This document shows, piece after piece, positions 192-28,030 of a stretch of DNA of 35,028 nucleotides. The position numbers and the translations under genes are program-made. The notes beneath the pieces were generated by a model. The model made no database searches. It was not told the DNA's origin and saw only the letters and a program-made list of their open reading frames with translations. The stretch is from positions 1 through 35,028 of the forward strand of contig JAFUFH010000044.1 of assembly GCA_017470005.1 (NCBI GenBank), read 5' to 3'. How positions within the stretch are numbered: the first letter of the stretch is position 1; every line of letters begins with the position of its first letter. The stretch comes from Bacilli bacterium (GTDB lineage Bacteria; Bacillota_I; Bacilli_A; RFN20; CAG-288).

Positions 192-1865
192 TTAAGCTTC
201 AAAGACTTCTTTTCCGAATTTAGGATATTTTGCGGTGTCAGAATAAGGATTTTCTGTCTTGAAGACATCCTGGTAGTTGGCTTTCATGTATTCTAAGAAA
301 GCTTCATCGGAGTAGGAGAAGTCCACTCTAGAGAGCCAGTAGGCACCAGATTTGGACTTGTAAGAGCCAGTGGTAGACATGACATAGGCGACTTCTCTAG
401 CCAATTCCGCCTTAGCTTCTTCGCTGTAGATAGAAGTAGTAGAACCAATGGTCATAGCGTTGGTGTCTACGACATCTAAGATACGAGTGATGTAGTAAGT
501 CTTAGAAGAGGTATCGTAGTAGACGATGTTGTCAGTGTCTTCACCAGTCAAGGTGTCAGCGACAGTGAGATAACGATAACCATCGTTTTGATAGACGGTT
601 AAGTCACCCTTAGTGCCAACATTTTCTTTCATGGTGGTTAAGGTAGTCTTATCCGAAGTGACCTTAGCGGAGAAGATACGTTCTGTCAAGGCAGAAGGAA
701 GAGCGGAGATACCAGCAGATTTGAGATAGAGGCCAGAAGTGATTTGATTCTTAGTGGCAATATCATCAACGGCTTTCTTGTATCCGGTCTTGGTGTCATA
801 GGTGTAGTTACCGGTGTAGGAAGATTCTAAGGAAGAATCCAACTTATCTAAGTAAGTTTGACCATCCGCGATCTTCTTCATATCATCGTGAACTTTACCA
901 TATAAGGTGTGAGATTCATAATCTTCATTGCCGAAGGTGCCTTCGATGATGTTGTGATCTCTCATCCATTGTTCTTCGTCAGCGGTTAAGACGATCTCTT
1001 GACCATAACGAGTGGAATCGATAGCGTCAGCGACATCGCTAGTGATACCTTTCCAGAGACGTTGAAGAGTGTAGAAGTTCTCATCCTTTTTGGTGCCTCT
1101 GATGTAATCCTCGACATAAGCGTCAAGCAATTGTTTGGCATCGCCAGGTTCATCGCTTCTATCGGTGAGAGCGACGACTTGGACTTTTCTAGCATTGGTG
1201 TTACCGATGGAGGCATAAGATTCATTGATGATGTATTCCGAAGTCAAATAGTTGATCTTCATATCATCATAGAGTTCTTTCTCCATGTAAGTCTTGTAGG
1301 TGTCAGCTTTCTTGTAGATATCTTCAAATTCCGCTTCGGGAGTGAGAAGCTTACCTTCCGTGTTGACATCTCCTTCTTGGTAATCGAAGTAATAGTAAGT
1401 CTCTTTTAAGTACTTAGCATATTCTTCTTCCATGAAGAGATTGTCTTTTTCATAGGTGCCGTTCTTAGCAGAAGAAGCTAAGGAATCAGCAGCTCTGTAG
1501 AAAAGGTTATCGAAGGTGGCAGGGATCGCTTGAGAATTGTCGGCGACAGAGTATTTGATGCAAGAGTCGTTAGCGACAGTCCAAACGCTGGATTGCTTGT
1601 CACCTTGGTAATCGTGAGCGACAGCGGCGATCTTGAGAAGAATGTCTTTGACCGTCTTTTCATAGATTTCGTTGTTGTTGGTTAAAGAATCGTAGTATTG
1701 TCTCCATTCGTTTTGAGCTAAGTCGACATTATCGCCTAAGCCATCTTTGGAGAAAAGAGCGTCAGCATAGTTTTTGGGATACTTCATCTCATCGGTGGAG
1801 CAGCCAGTGAGAACAAAGATGGAAGCGATAGCGAATAAGCTAGCAAGTTTCTTATTTCTTGACAT
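192..1865 (-). CDS. Lipoprotein, degenerate PrsA/parvulin-like
   Basis: This is a 557-residue predicted lipoprotein. A basic N-terminus and hydrophobic segment lead to a lipobox LTGC (Cys22), so it should be anchored outside the cytoplasmic membrane. I chose the ATG at 1865 because an AGGAGG lies just upstream and the signal peptide starts there; an in-frame extension to 1952 would bury the signal. The start overlaps the stop of the upstream lipoprotein by 14 bases, so the two are translationally coupled. The mature part begins much like its neighbour (Cys, then a YP pair a few residues on) and shows a similar order of segments. However, the stretch corresponding to the neighbour's HILVK parvulin strand reads VQVVALTDR. 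It is probably a paralogue that has lost the isomerase motif. A role as an extracellular chaperone or holdase is inference. Confidence 0.7.
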   Translation of the reverse strand: MSRNKKLASLFAIASIFVLTGCSTDEMKYPKNYADALFSKDGLGDNVDLAQNEWRQYYDSLTNNNEIYEKTVKDILLKIAAVAHDYQGDKQSSVWTVANDSCIKYSVADNSQAIPATFDNLFYRAADSLASSAKNGTYEKDNLFMEEEYAKYLKETYYYFDYQEGDVNTEGKLLTPEAEFEDIYKKADTYKTYMEKELYDDMKINYLTSEYIINESYASIGNTNARKVQVVALTDRSDEPGDAKQLLDAYVEDYIRGTKKDENFYTLQRLWKGITSDVADAIDSTRYGQEIVLTADEEQWMRDHNIIEGTFGNEDYESHTLYGKVHDDMKKIADGQTYLDKLDSSLESSYTGNYTYDTKTGYKKAVDDIATKNQITSGLYLKSAGISALPSALTERIFSAKVTSDKTTLTTMKENVGTKGDLTVYQNDGYRYLTVADTLTGEDTDNIVYYDTSSKTYYITRILDVVDTNAMTIGSTTSIYSEEAKAELAREVAYVMSTTGSYKSKSGAYWLSRVDFSYSDEAFLEYMKANYQDVFKTENPYSDTAKYPKFGKEVFEA

Positions 1866-3855
1866 GGCAGATATCCTCCTGTGTAGAGTTAGTGTATTCA
1901 CCGTATTCGAAGTAAGCGACGCAGACCGTAGGAAGCATACGAGCAGTAGCAACTTCTACTTGGACGTTGAGAGAGTTGATATAGGTCTCCCAAGAGCTGT
2001 CTAAGGTCTCGGCTCTATCATCGGTAGAAGAAGCGATGGTAGTGGTGATGTATTTGTTGATCTTTTCGTAGAGTTCCGCACCGACATAATCCTTGAAGGA
2101 CTTGTTGTAGGTCTTAGCGAACTTATCTTCATTGGCTCTGAAACGAGAGAACTCAATGTTGAAGTCGCTAGCCTTGATGGCATCCTGAAGGGTTTCTTTA
2201 CGCTTGTTGTAAGTGGTGTTGGAGTTAGCATCCGCAGTGACGAAGTTGATGAAGGAAGGATTGGTGGCATAGTCTGTGGATTTGGCAGGGTTAGAGGAAT
2301 TTTCCTGAGGGATATTCACTCTATAATATTTATAGGTATTAGCCTTGTCTTCGAAAGGATTCTTGTTGACGATGATGAAGTGAATTCCTTGATATCCGCT
2401 TTCGCCAGCAGTACCACCGCGGACAACGATGATAGGTTGATGTTTAGAAGCGGTTGTGAGGATTTTCTTACCAGTAGCAAGAGGAGTGAGAGTAGTGCTC
2501 ACTTGAGAGCCAGAGATGGTAGAACGATATCCATAGAGATGATCACCGATTTCGCCGACGGTTTGGAAGACGTCATCAGAGAGGTTATCCATTCTGTTCT
2601 TGATGTAGTTGTATTCTTTGAACTTGTTAGGAAGAACGTTCTCTAAATCAGCGATGCTGCTGACGGCGGGATTGATGACTTGGCATTCGGCTAAGAATTC
2701 TGCTTCCCATTCCGCAGTGTCATCATAAATGAAGTTGACACCGTGATAGTTGAAGTAGTTGTTGAAGAGAATGTTACGAGGATACTGAGTGGCAGTAGCA
2801 TAGTCTACTTGCTTACCAGTTTCAGGATTGCTCTCGGTATCGGCTAAATATTGGATTTGGAATGCCTTGGACACAGGAATACCAAATGCTTGACCCTTAC
2901 CGACTAAAGTATCATCGATAGCATCGGCAACAGAAGTATCATCCTTATATTCAGGAAGGAGATCTTTGCCCTCGATCGCTTTGCCAGGAACTCTCAAAGA
3001 GAGTTTGACATCATCATCATTCTTGGTCTCAGGATTTAAGAAGGCGTCATAAGCATAGACACCTAACTTGAATTCGTTGATATAAGAAGTGGTCTTTTCC
3101 ATGGCGACCTGTTGCTTTTCCACATAAAGTTCACCATAGTTAACCTTGGAAGAATCATCATCAGAAGACAATTGAGCGACAGAACCGAAGGACTGTCCGA
3201 CAGAAAGCATTCTGACAACGTTACCGATATGCTTGGCGTTATCGGCGGAGATGTTGCCATTCCAATAACCTTCACCAGAAGAGGAAGCATCTACCTTCAC
3301 TAAGATGTGAGAGACATGGTAGGGAGCATTTCTTGTGACATAGTCTTTGGTGTACTGTTCGGAGATGTAATATTCTTCATCCGGATTGGTGACACCTTTG
3401 TTGACAGTGGTGAAAGCATTAGTGTTCTCATCGACTTGCTGTTGAGCATAGTATTTTTCAATTAACTGCTCTTCGTTTTCAACACCTTCAGAGTCGAAAG
3501 TTTTCTCCTGTTCTTCCTTGTAAGAAGTGCCGTTGGTTCTGGCATTTTCTTTCCAAGTGTCATGGAGCTTATCGACTTTGGAAGAGACGTTGACTTTGAT
3601 AGAGTCTGTTCTAGGGGTGACAAGCTGTGCTAAGACAGACTTGGCAACGCTGTAATAAGACTGGGCGGAATTCTTCGTTCCTTCAAAGGCCTTGTAAATA
3701 TCGTCAAATGTGTATTGGTGGCCTGCGACGGTGACGATCTGACCTTCAGTCCACTTACTGTCCGGGTAAGTGTAATCTTCGCTACAAGCGGACAAAGCAC
3801 CGCAAAGAGCAATCAGAGACATCGCAAGCGATAAGGTACGTTTCCCTTTCATCAT
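1852..3855 (-). CDS. PrsA-like lipoprotein with parvulin (PpiC) domain
   Basis: This is a 667-residue lipoprotein and probable peptidyl-prolyl cis-trans isomerase acting on secreted proteins outside the membrane. A signal peptide ends in lipobox LSAC (Cys24). Residues about 178-245 carry the parvulin pattern: HVSHILVK, then an A-K-I helix, G-QSF-VA, S-D-S and a GEL turn. A second, weaker copy may lie near residues 480-510 (IIVVRGG followed by IHFIIVNK). At 667 residues it is more than twice the length of PrsA of Bacillus (about 290), so the architecture is unusual. The start is the ATG at 3855 (or the adjacent ATG at 3852), six to nine bases after AGGAGG; the upstream in-frame ATG lies within that ribosome site. 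It is first in a two-gene operon with the 557-residue lipoprotein. Confidence 0.75.
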   Translation of the reverse strand: MMKGKRTLSLAMSLIALCGALSACSEDYTYPDSKWTEGQIVTVAGHQYTFDDIYKAFEGTKNSAQSYYSVAKSVLAQLVTPRTDSIKVNVSSKVDKLHDTWKENARTNGTSYKEEQEKTFDSEGVENEEQLIEKYYAQQQVDENTNAFTTVNKGVTNPDEEYYISEQYTKDYVTRNAPYHVSHILVKVDASSSGEGYWNGNISADNAKHIGNVVRMLSVGQSFGSVAQLSSDDDSSKVNYGELYVEKQQVAMEKTTSYINEFKLGVYAYDAFLNPETKNDDDVKLSLRVPGKAIEGKDLLPEYKDDTSVADAIDDTLVGKGQAFGIPVSKAFQIQYLADTESNPETGKQVDYATATQYPRNILFNNYFNYHGVNFIYDDTAEWEAEFLAECQVINPAVSSIADLENVLPNKFKEYNYIKNRMDNLSDDVFQTVGEIGDHLYGYRSTISGSQVSTTLTPLATGKKILTTASKHQPIIVVRGGTAGESGYQGIHFIIVNKNPFEDKANTYKYYRVNIPQENSSNPAKSTDYATNPSFINFVTADANSNTTYNKRKETLQDAIKASDFNIEFSRFRANEDKFAKTYNKSFKDYVGAELYEKINKYITTTIASSTDDRAETLDSSWETYINSLNVQVEVATARMLPTVCVAYFEYGEYTNSTQEDICHVKK

Positions 3856-3903
3856 ATGGGTCCTCCTCATTGAATTTTATCGCACACACAAATAGTCTTT
3901 ACT

Positions 3904-25123: not shown

Positions 25124-25279
25124 TCTCGCGTTCTTTTCTTCTATATGAAATCAAGATAGTCTACTAAACAACGATAAAAGATTAGAAAACAATTTATTTA
25201 AATGATTATAGTTGTGAACAATGAATTGCGATAGAAAAGCTAAAATAGAGAAAAATCCAAAAATTCGAGTTTCTTTTGG

Positions 25280-25308
25280 TTGTATCTTCTTCGCAAACTT
25301 GATAAAAT
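25280..25308 (+). promoter_or_regulatory. Promoter of a candidate small RNA
   Basis: -35 TTGTAT (25280-25285) and -10 TAAAAT (25303-25308) have a 17-base spacer and an extended TGA directly before the -10. No protein gene follows it; two stem-loops do. Confidence 0.5.
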
Positions 25309-25314
25309 AATTTT

Positions 25315-25400
25315 GCATAAATGTGCCAATAAAATTCCATTGAATAGCACACAGAAAAGCCCGTCAAATTCTTCATGAACTGACGGGTTTTCCTTTTTTT
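25315..25400 (+). ncRNA. Candidate small non-coding RNA (about 85 nt)
   Basis: A predicted transcript starts about 7 bases after the promoter at 25280-25308. It contains a nested hairpin: TGTGC (25322-25326) pairs with GCACA (25347-25351), with an inner CAAT/ATTG pair. It ends at a strong terminator hairpin (25357-25390) with a T-rich tail. I found no open frame with a ribosome site inside it and do not recognise it as 6S, SRP, tmRNA or RNase P RNA. It lies in the gap between the divergent HAD operon and the repeat membrane-protein gene. This is prediction from promoter and structure only. Confidence 0.45.
25357..25400 (+). terminator. Terminator of the candidate small RNA
   Basis: AAGCCCGTCA (25357-25366) pairs with TGACGGGTTT (25381-25390) in a 10-bp stem with one G-U pair. 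It is followed by TCC and a run of seven T. It has no protein gene upstream on this strand. Confidence 0.8.
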
Positions 25401-25485
25401 ATTCCAATTTCTTAGAAAAAAACATAAGAAATTGTTCACGCCAAGAAAAAAAAGAAACAAGTGTTTTGAAAGAGATTGGGAGAAT

Positions 25486-25523
25486 AAGACAGGATAAGGA
25501 AGAGATAATATCCTGTCTTTTTT
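25486..25523 (+). terminator. Second orphan terminator
   Basis: An 11-bp perfect stem AAGACAGGATA (25486-25496) / TATCCTGTCTT (25509-25519) is followed by six T. Between it and the first terminator lies a further inverted repeat (CAATTTCTTA 25405-25414 with TAAGAAATTG 25425-25434). It is either a back-up terminator or the end of a second short RNA. Confidence 0.75.
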
Positions 25524-25756
25524 GACGTTTATTATGTGTTAATTTTACAGCGGTTTTCATTTTCAAAAAGTGCCTTATTTTGCTTACTTTTTGCTTTTTG
25601 AACGACGGTTTATCTTTGGTATTTGGATGCTAAAAATTGACAAAAAACAATTATCGTATTTTGGGAAACGCTTACATCAACATGCCTAGTTGTTTATGTT
25701 ATAAAATTTGCAAAAAGTTGTTTCTTATATAAATTGATTGTTTTTAATAAAAAAAC

Positions 25757-25786: not shown

Positions 25787-25840
25787 AATATCAAACCAGG
25801 TGTTTTTGTGTCCTGTTTTCATTACAAGGAGGCCCCGAAA

Positions 25841-28030
25841 ATGGCTAAATCTAGTAAAAAGAAGAAGAGTATAGCACTGCGAATTTTCAACATACTCTTC
25901 ATCGTTGCTGCTGTGATTGCTGTCGCGGTAGCAATCATGATGTTCACTCCTATCGCTTCCTCTCTTAAAGGTGCTTTGAAAGGCGCCGGCCCATTAGCTG
26001 CAGATATCGCTGCAAAATTAAATGCATGGGTCAAATTCCATATCTGTGATAACTTTGGATTTGGAACCACATTCAGAGGTCACGGTGTCACCTTCACATC
26101 TTGTATGTACATCTACATCATGTGTCTCGGTGCATTGTTAGGCTTCTTCTTAATGTATGTTCCCTTCCTCTTCCGTCATAGAAACAAAGTAGACGGAAAG
26201 AAAGATATTTGGAGAAAGGTCCTTCAATGGGTTGCCTTCGCATGGGTTACCATCATGTTTGCTGGTATCTTCTCCTTATTCTTCACTCAAAGATTAACAA
26301 GAGATTTAGGCGCTGCCTGGACTTGGGTCCGCGTCTTCTTCGATAAAGTCAGCGGTACTTTCATCGCTGGTCATAGACTTGGCGCTCTCAACTTGAAGTT
26401 CATCACTTCTAACCCTGCCGTCAATGGTCTTATCTATGGTATCTTAGTTGTCATCCTTGTCGAAATGATTCTTTGTATCATCTCCATCGTTGGCAAGAAG
26501 GCCAAAGAAGCTGTTGCCGAAGGTGAGAATGAACCCGAAGAACAGAAAGCTGCTGCCGTTGGTGAAGTTAAGGAAACTCAACTTGTTCCTACCGGCCGTG
26601 AATTAGCTGTTCTCAATTCCTTAGAAGCTATCAAGGATACTTCTGTGGATGAACTTCCTGAAGAAGGCAATGTCGCTGCCGAAGATGCTGTTGCTGATCT
26701 TGATAATAAAGATGAACAAGCGGTTGAAGCTAAGGCTCAAGAAGAAGCTGAAGAGATTGCCAAAGAACTCGAACCTCATAAGAACGCTGTTAAGGTCTTA
26801 CCTGGTATTGATGAATTCGACGCTCAACCTTGGGATGAAGTAGAAGAAGAGGCCGAAGAAGAATTGACCGAAGAAGCTGCTCCTGAAGATGAGACTGTCG
26901 CTGTCGAAGAAGCAGTTGAAGAACAAGCGGAAGAAGCTGTCGAAGAGCAACCTGCTGAAGAAGCACAACCTGTTGAAGAAGAACAGCCTGTTGAAGAAGC
27001 AGTTGAAGAACAACCTGCTGAAGAAGCTGTCGAAGAGCAACCTGCTGAAGAAGAACAGCCTGTTGAAGAACAAACTGAAGAGGTTGTCGAAGAAACTGTC
27101 GAAGAACAAACCGAAGAAGTTGTTGAAGAACACCCTGCTGAGGAAGAACAACCTGTCGAAGAAGAACAACCTGCTGAAGAACAAGCAGAAGAGGTTGTCG
27201 AAGAAACTGTCGAAGAACAGACCGAAGAAGTTGTTGAAGAACAACCCACTGAGGAAGAACAACCCGCTGAAGAACAGCCTGCGGAAGAAGAGCAGAGACC
27301 TGTCTCCAACGTCAAGCAAGTCCAGCTTAAGGAAGTCAACAAGAAAGATGACGCCAACAAGCCTAGAGGACCTATCGCCCCTGTCACTCCGATGGCTCAA
27401 GAAGAACAGCCTGTCGAAGAAGAAGTCAAGGAAGAAAAGACTCTCGCTCCTGTCAGTGGACCTCTCCACTCCACAGAGAAGAGTAAGCATGATGAGATTA
27501 GACCTGTCGAAGCTAGAAAGGTCAAATTCGAAAAGAGAAATTACGAATTGAAGACCTATGAAGGCGACCTCACTTCTGAAGAAGCCTTCGAAAAGGGTGT
27601 CACCAAGGTTCAACCTTCTGTCAATCCTGTCTTCGCTAACCAAGGCAATGAACCTGCCTGGAAGCAGAAGAAGAGAGACGAAGAGATCCGTAAGAACGGG
27701 TATGGTGAAGTCACTCAAGTCGAAGATCTCTCTACTGCCACCAAGAGAGCTCCTGTAGCTGCTCCTGTCAAGGGTAACTCCATCCGTGAGATGGCTAAAG
27801 CTAGCAAAGTTCAGGAAGAAGCTCCTGTTGAAGAGAACAAAGAAGAACAGAAGTTAGCTAAACCTGCTGCTCCTGTCGCTGTCAATAAGACAGAAGAAGC
27901 TCCTGCACAAGCTCCTGTGGAAGAAGCCGCTCCTAAACAAGCTCCTGCCTTCCATCCGATTGCTCCTATCGCTAAGAAGGATAGACCTAGACCTGAAATC
28001 AAGCCGGTCGATCCCTTAAAGAAGAAGTAA
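25841..28030 (+). CDS. Four-helix membrane protein with acidic Glu/Gln/Pro repeat and basic tail
   Basis: This is a 729-residue protein of unknown family. A basic start (AKSSKKKK) leads to four predicted transmembrane helices at about 11-35, 88-111, 127-148 and 195-217. Residues about 330-486 are almost entirely Glu, Val, Gln, Pro, Ala and Thr in short units such as EEQPVEE, EEQPAEE and VVEETVEEQTEE. The remaining about 240 residues are hydrophilic, Pro/Lys/Ala-rich, ending KPVDPLKKK. The start is the ATG at 25841: AAGGAGG lies eight bases upstream, and an in-frame start at 25808 has none. The long soluble part is probably cytoplasmic given the even number of helices and basic N-terminus. It has its own promoter and a terminator at 28041. 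A scaffold or spacer role is possible, but I cannot assign function. Confidence 0.8.
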   Translation: MAKSSKKKKSIALRIFNILFIVAAVIAVAVAIMMFTPIASSLKGALKGAGPLAADIAAKLNAWVKFHICDNFGFGTTFRGHGVTFTSCMYIYIMCLGALLGFFLMYVPFLFRHRNKVDGKKDIWRKVLQWVAFAWVTIMFAGIFSLFFTQRLTRDLGAAWTWVRVFFDKVSGTFIAGHRLGALNLKFITSNPAVNGLIYGILVVILVEMILCIISIVGKKAKEAVAEGENEPEEQKAAAVGEVKETQLVPTGRELAVLNSLEAIKDTSVDELPEEGNVAAEDAVADLDNKDEQAVEAKAQEEAEEIAKELEPHKNAVKVLPGIDEFDAQPWDEVEEEAEEELTEEAAPEDETVAVEEAVEEQAEEAVEEQPAEEAQPVEEEQPVEEAVEEQPAEEAVEEQPAEEEQPVEEQTEEVVEETVEEQTEEVVEEHPAEEEQPVEEEQPAEEQAEEVVEETVEEQTEEVVEEQPTEEEQPAEEQPAEEEQRPVSNVKQVQLKEVNKKDDANKPRGPIAPVTPMAQEEQPVEEEVKEEKTLAPVSGPLHSTEKSKHDEIRPVEARKVKFEKRNYELKTYEGDLTSEEAFEKGVTKVQPSVNPVFANQGNEPAWKQKKRDEEIRKNGYGEVTQVEDLSTATKRAPVAAPVKGNSIREMAKASKVQEEAPVEENKEEQKLAKPAAPVAVNKTEEAPAQAPVEEAAPKQAPAFHPIAPIAKKDRPRPEIKPVDPLKKK
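27077..27269 (+). repeat. Internal tandem duplication in the acidic repeat
   Basis: Two copies of about 80 bases, beginning at 27077 and 27188 (111-base, 37-codon offset), differ at only about five positions. Each encodes the segment EEVVEETVEEQTEEVVEE and its continuation. Shorter CCTGCTGAAGAA-like units surround them from about 26830 to 27300. The near identity at DNA level points to recent expansion. Confidence 0.8.

Follow-up and report, generated by a model that had tools for sequence, protein, structure and literature searches.

A conserved RNA gene of uncultured Bacilli predicted to pair with leaders of Sec export and envelope proteostasis genes

In the gap between two divergent operons of the window, by which we mean the whole 35,028-nucleotide stretch of DNA that was analyzed, lies a short segment in which a promoter, two hairpins, and a run of T residues follow one another. 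Does this segment specify an RNA of its own or does it serve a neighboring gene, and, if the former, on what might the RNA act? Its signals, a promoter and an intrinsic terminator that belong to it alone, mark it as an independent RNA gene. The reading that we prefer, with considerable confidence, is that its product is a small RNA (sRNA) of ~85 nt that acts in trans by base pairing and would repress translation of a Sec and envelope proteostasis regulon without Hfq.

The RNA gene and its conserved elements

The sRNA gene occupies positions 25316 to 25400 of the forward strand, its start being placed from the -10 box and its end from the terminator. Its promoter, P1, is of the sigma-A type (TTGTAT-17-TAAAAT, 25280 to 25308, forward strand), with boxes at 25280 to 25285 and 25303 to 25308 that stand 17 nt apart; the spacer between P1 and the two-hairpin sequence is short, and a T run marks the end. 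The original prediction had called this a good promoter. By itself P1 is unremarkable, as promoter matches in a consensus scan were no more frequent than in shuffled sequence, and since any single match could equally be due to chance, it is conservation that carries the argument. Twelve of the 14 genomes have the pattern TTGnnn-N17-TAnnnT 20 to 30 nt 5' of the conserved core, compared with a shuffle mean of 0.18 and a maximum of 4, so that the promoter holds up through its conserved position. The gene and its conserved signals are thereby established computationally, and they include the independent promoter and intrinsic terminator by which a trans-encoded sRNA is recognized.

Folding of 25316 to 25400 gave -22.8 kcal/mol (z = -5.3) and recovered both hairpins of the RNA of about 85 nt that had been predicted. 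The terminator hairpin (25355 to 25400, forward strand; originally described as strong and placed at 25357 to 25400) is present in all 14 homologs, with a conserved bulged A and a UUA/UAA inner stem at its apex. Seven pairs of its stem have compensatory changes in which both partners are altered, and the stem scored higher for covariation than all 500 shuffles and every slid control. Compensatory changes alone do not prove an RNA function, however, being expected in any conserved terminator. The nested hairpin predicted at 25322 to 25351 (forward strand) is real in this sequence, but its outer arm (TGTGC/GCACA) is not a conserved structure: it pairs fully in this genome only, relatives retaining two to four of the five pairs, and what persists is (Y)AAU-loop-AUUG, in most genomes, together with the invariant 3' strand. 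The expectation that the stems would be conserved and covary was therefore borne out for the terminator, whereas the conserved element of the first hairpin is a single-stranded sequence.

This sequence is the mostly unpaired core AATTCYATTGAATAGCACA (25333 to 25351, forward strand), delimited by alignment of homologs, with the almost invariant 19-nt consensus AAUUCYAUUGAAUAGCACA. Given that the proteins flanking the sRNA are only ~40 to 50% identical between genomes of the genus, such constancy is striking. Overlapping the core is the seed UGAAUAGCACAC (25341 to 25352, forward strand), predicted to pair with leader sites GTGTGCTATTCA, and toward the 5' end of the core lies AUUCY (25334 to 25338, forward strand), the putative partner of the Shine-Dalgarno bases GGAG in many duplexes. 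A kissing interaction between the core (AUUGAAUA) and the terminator loop (UAUUCAAU) was dropped, having been seen by eye in three genomes only.

A 341-base query compared with 14 other genomes of the genus matched 12, nearly always within ~25324 to 25398 of the window, and a covariance model built from 13 sequences found one copy each in 14 of the 15 genus genomes, the sole negative being a genome that is 69% complete (G008). Extended with stricter filters to the 264 remaining genomes of the order, the search gave no match; of the family's genomes from sister genera that lack the sRNA, five (G016, G017, G019, G021, and G022) are about 90% complete or more. An 18-nt core pattern, run against the genomes of 84,980 species, returned 18 stretches, of which 13 were from this genus and 5 were isolated and lacked the hairpin. 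The genome records are MAGs of uncultured Bacilli, from the rumen and elsewhere; the genus, nearly all of whose known species have the sRNA, is mostly of gut origin. Wherever the sequence extends far enough, the sRNA lies between a HAD gene (reverse) and the gene of a membrane protein with an acidic tail (forward); G004 has neither the HAD nor the thioesterase gene, and there the sRNA adjoins comFA, with the membrane protein gene still downstream. In another genus of the family (L047, L049, and L051), the HAD gene is divergent from a gene of ~280 to 310 aa that is followed by a membrane protein whose N terminus is similar to that of the window's protein. No sRNA is found at these three loci, which suggests that it may have arisen at the HAD/membrane protein locus in one genus.

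A search of Rfam 15 brought no family to its gathering score, in agreement with the original statement that no RNA family was recognized, and a permissive threshold gave no credible match (best, 20 bits against a cut-off of 55). No conserved open reading frame was seen inside the sRNA, where none had been judged plausible before. There is no RF00013 (6S RNA) match at the sRNA, and a replacement of 6S RNA was rejected. A repeat or mobile element was rejected because its own genome holds a single copy, and a phage-borne origin of the core because the two IMG/VR matches lack the hairpin. No paper describing the sRNA was found in the literature searches made. The proposal of a novel small RNA is thus upheld by conservation in 14 of 15 genomes, terminator covariation, promoter conservation, and the core's matches to ribosome-binding sites described below, and the sRNA would represent a new family of a known kind, the trans-encoded base-pairing sRNAs, with an unusual target set. 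As separate observations, weak 6S RNA candidates elsewhere in three genomes (L115, L116, and L117; 33 to 40 bits, below the Rfam cut-off of 46.4) are probably a divergent 6S RNA of this lineage, and an inverted repeat, GTGAACAAT (25214 to 25222) and ATTGTTCAC (25431 to 25439), flanks the sRNA region, its conservation not being seen.

The downstream gene and the question of a leader

Because of its position, the element might instead be read as the leader of the downstream membrane protein gene (25841 to 28030, forward strand), that is, as a transcription attenuator whose terminator controls read-through. The sRNA is indeed always 5' of this gene and in the same orientation, even in G004, which lacks the HAD and thioesterase genes. 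The gene has a separate promoter, however: P2 (25757 to 25786, forward strand) recurs in all 14 genomes at 49 to 57 nt upstream of the ATG, compared with a shuffle mean of 0.9 and a maximum of 4. As deduced from sequence, this promoter argues against dependence of the gene on read-through from a shared promoter and, with it, against a leader. Furthermore, the core has no consistent complementarity to the leader of this gene (rank p > 0.1 in 13 of 14), which is a neighbor and not a conserved target, and the terminator lacks a conserved alternative structure. Upstream of the sRNA, the divergent gap contains no forward-strand gene that would need a terminator, which argues for an independent transcript. 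On these grounds, above all P2 and the absence of complementarity, the attenuator was rejected; we consider it quite unlikely.

Several features of this region were recorded in passing. In the downstream protein, several membrane segments are accompanied by a long, acidic tail of E/P-rich repeats, and the GTG start listed for it (25808 to 28030) is probably wrong, with a strong Shine-Dalgarno sequence preceding the ATG at 25841. A conserved DNA element, AAAGTTGTTTCTT(A/G), is present at 25714 to 25727 and at the homologous loci L003 to L014 and L046. It lies 41 to 45 bp upstream of the -35 box of P2, except in three genomes where the distance is 53 to 59 bp, longer by about one helical turn; this placement is like that of an activator site. 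Among the exact copies found elsewhere are those at the same gene in the sister species G010 and G012. In the interval from the sRNA to the downstream gene, there is also a second strong terminator-like hairpin, AAGACAGGATA...TATCCTGTCTTTTTT (25484 to 25522); since the spacing here is ~250 nt longer than in all relatives, this hairpin belongs to a genome-specific insertion.

Complementarity to leaders of export and proteostasis genes

The first target search, with the 13-mer TGTGYTRTTYRRT, found no conserved gene at a start site. A second search of the genus, for GTGCTAT before a ribosome-binding site and ATG, returned many promoter-like TGCTATAAT matches and, among the others, four orthologs of one membrane protein of ~390 aa. 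When its orthologs were collected by protein homology (L150 to L163), a complementary site was present in all 12 with a full leader, directly upstream of or overlapping the Shine-Dalgarno sequence, and the duplexes reached -14.1 to -21.6 kcal/mol compared with about -10 for shuffled leaders. This protein, encoded on the minus strand in its own genome (G000:C44:180-1334), has the best-conserved site for the sRNA; searches of PDB, Pfam, and NCBIfam gave it no credible identity.

Matches to the pattern GTGTGCT, grouped into orthologous sets, added SecA (Pfam SecA_DEAD, 1.5e-121), Lon (Lon_C, 2.2e-71), and SecDF (NCBIfam SecDF_plasm, 5.4e-47, and secD, 1e-27, neither reaching its curated cut-off). 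A PrsA-like lipoprotein has a site in G009 and G004, the latter copy (L137) matching Rotamase_3 (PF13616) at 2.6e-5, and the sixth set is a membrane-anchored thioredoxin-like protein (PF00085, 2.6e-4, below the cut-off). The six predicted target sets are therefore secA, secDF, lon, a PrsA-like foldase lipoprotein, the thioredoxin-like membrane protein, and the ~390-aa membrane protein, with sites lying upstream of or overlapping the Shine-Dalgarno sequence. Several of these families were first found through motif searches, as were all of the lon sites.

Sites were ranked against a background of 1,039 genes with Shine-Dalgarno sequences from four genomes. Fourteen sites located by protein homology alone had rank p values of 0.004 to 0.059, 13 of them below 0.05; their combined Fisher value of 1e-13 is descriptive only, because the leaders of orthologs are related and not fully independent. 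Some sites were weak: p was 0.059 for the ~390-aa membrane protein in G009, 0.053 for the thioredoxin-like protein in G012, and 0.029 for secDF in G001. When 163 ortholog families from the sampled stretches were scanned blind, lon ranked first and the ~390-aa protein second, with secA in fourth place and the thioredoxin-like protein in fifth. The best combined p was 1.7e-4; the reverse complement reached 2.7e-3, and none of eight shuffled RNAs did better than 2.1e-3. Of 30 target leaders, 27 contained the sense motif and none the antisense motif, against backgrounds of 4% and 1%, respectively. Strong duplexes, at -16 kcal/mol, numbered 21 compared with a shuffle mean of 5.75; the reverse complement gave 14, and so the count alone would be weak evidence, and strong duplexes also occurred in unrelated genes, as chance predicts. 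What the computation does demonstrate is a conserved unpaired seed that is complementary, across species, to several mRNAs, with the sites placed at their ribosome-binding regions.

Among the genes of the window itself, the ranking singled out the foldase gene (listed as 1852 to 3870, minus strand) with a rank p of about 0.006. This candidate target, a PrsA-like PPIase lipoprotein gene with its start ATG at 3855 (1852 to 3855, minus strand), encodes a protein that shares 41 to 44% identity with its PrsA-like counterparts in G009 and G004 (L206 and L137) and has a weak Rotamase_3 (PF13616) match (E = 0.004). The predicted binding site in its leader, TGTGTGC-GATAAA-ATTCAAT-G-AGGAG (3863 to 3893, minus strand), offers the seed two complementary blocks of 7 bp, with additional pairs that reach the Shine-Dalgarno sequence. 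The duplex amounts to -20.2 kcal/mol by pairing energies that ignore competing structure; with folding of both partners counted, the gain is a modest -6.3 kcal/mol.

Proposed action of the sRNA and competing readings

From these features, we infer that the sRNA is transcribed, pairs with its targets in the cell, represses them, and answers to an inducing cue. The invariant unpaired stretch 5'-AAUUCYAUUGAAUAGCACAC-3' would pair with the GTGTGCTATTCA site of target leaders, often with a small bulge; AGCACAC and UGAAU would contact the site, while AUUCY would cover the Shine-Dalgarno GGAG in many targets. Ribosome binding would thereby be blocked, with less synthesis of the Sec export and envelope quality control machinery jointly, and the sRNA thus probably turns down export and protein quality control genes together. 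Hfq is a common partner of sRNAs in Proteobacteria and is not required in Bacillota. An Hfq gene (PF17209) was found in none of the 15 genus genomes, whereas 5 of 14 control genomes score; pairing would therefore occur unaided or with another chaperone. We lean toward the broader proposal that one sRNA masks the ribosome-binding sites of SecA, SecDF, the foldase, the thioredoxin-like protein, and Lon and so tunes the whole secretion and envelope proteostasis capacity of an Hfq-less lineage.

Such an RNA would resemble RoxS/RsaE, FsrA, and SR1 of Bacillota in having its own promoter, an intrinsic terminator, a short unpaired seed, and several mRNA targets paired at the Shine-Dalgarno region. 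It differs from these in that it has no Rfam match to any of them, its seed UGAAUAGCACAC is not C rich, it is restricted to one genus in which no Hfq gene was found, and its targets are others. MicA, RybB, and CpxQ of enterobacteria likewise place an envelope or export set under one sRNA, but they are unrelated in sequence, are Hfq dependent, and act mainly on outer membrane proteins or periplasmic factors, whereas SecA, SecDF, and Lon themselves are among the predicted targets here. For secA and secDF, the known control of synthesis is exerted in cis, by arrest peptides. SecM and VemP share with the proposed sRNA the posttranscriptional control of secA or secDF, but they are cis-encoded nascent-peptide sensors with a single target, and the sRNA would act in trans on several. 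If correct, pairing of a trans-acting RNA with the leaders of secA, secDF, lon, and the foldase gene would differ as a solution from arrest peptides in cis, one RNA would set export capacity and quality control jointly, and a multitarget sRNA network would have been deduced from sequence alone in uncultured bacteria. The exact seed and site pairs make this network directly testable in a laboratory host.

The most serious competitor of the sRNA reading, although an unlikely one, is that the shared motif is a DNA operator near start sites, which the sRNA gene carries reversed by chance. An HrcA-related regulator would be an example, as the CIRCE half-site TTAGCACTC resembles ATAGCACAC; the sites lie 6 to 16 nt downstream of a -10 box where one is visible (read by eye), and the lon leaders of G002 and G008 contain the CIRCE-like TAGCACTC-N9-GTGTGCTA. 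Genuine CIRCE in three sampled genomes, however, is the canonical two-armed TTAGCACTC-N9-(G/A)AGTGCTAA, and the two-armed form TTAGCACTC-N9-GAGTGCTAA was found neither in the sRNA gene nor at most target sites. These lack a second arm, the exceptions being lon in G002 and G008, with canonical CIRCE at three other sites. The strand bias of the motif (27 sense and 0 antisense in 30 target leaders) also speaks against an operator, as do sites that are bulged and run into the Shine-Dalgarno sequence as RNA pairing would.

Less likely than an operator, as is the leader considered above, is an RNA that acts mainly by binding and sequestering a protein, with mRNA complementarity being secondary or coincidental. 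The bulged A and UUA/UAA inner stem retained at the terminator apex go beyond the needs of a plain terminator and would suit such a role, yet it is the conserved mRNA complementarity that explains the invariant core, and we regard protein sequestration as very improbable. Base pairing by the sRNA and control by HrcA may nonetheless meet at one gene. Upstream of lon at two loci (L172 and L179), the CIRCE-like TAGCACTC-N9-GTGTGCTA overlaps the predicted sRNA site, which suggests that in some species both HrcA and the sRNA may control lon.
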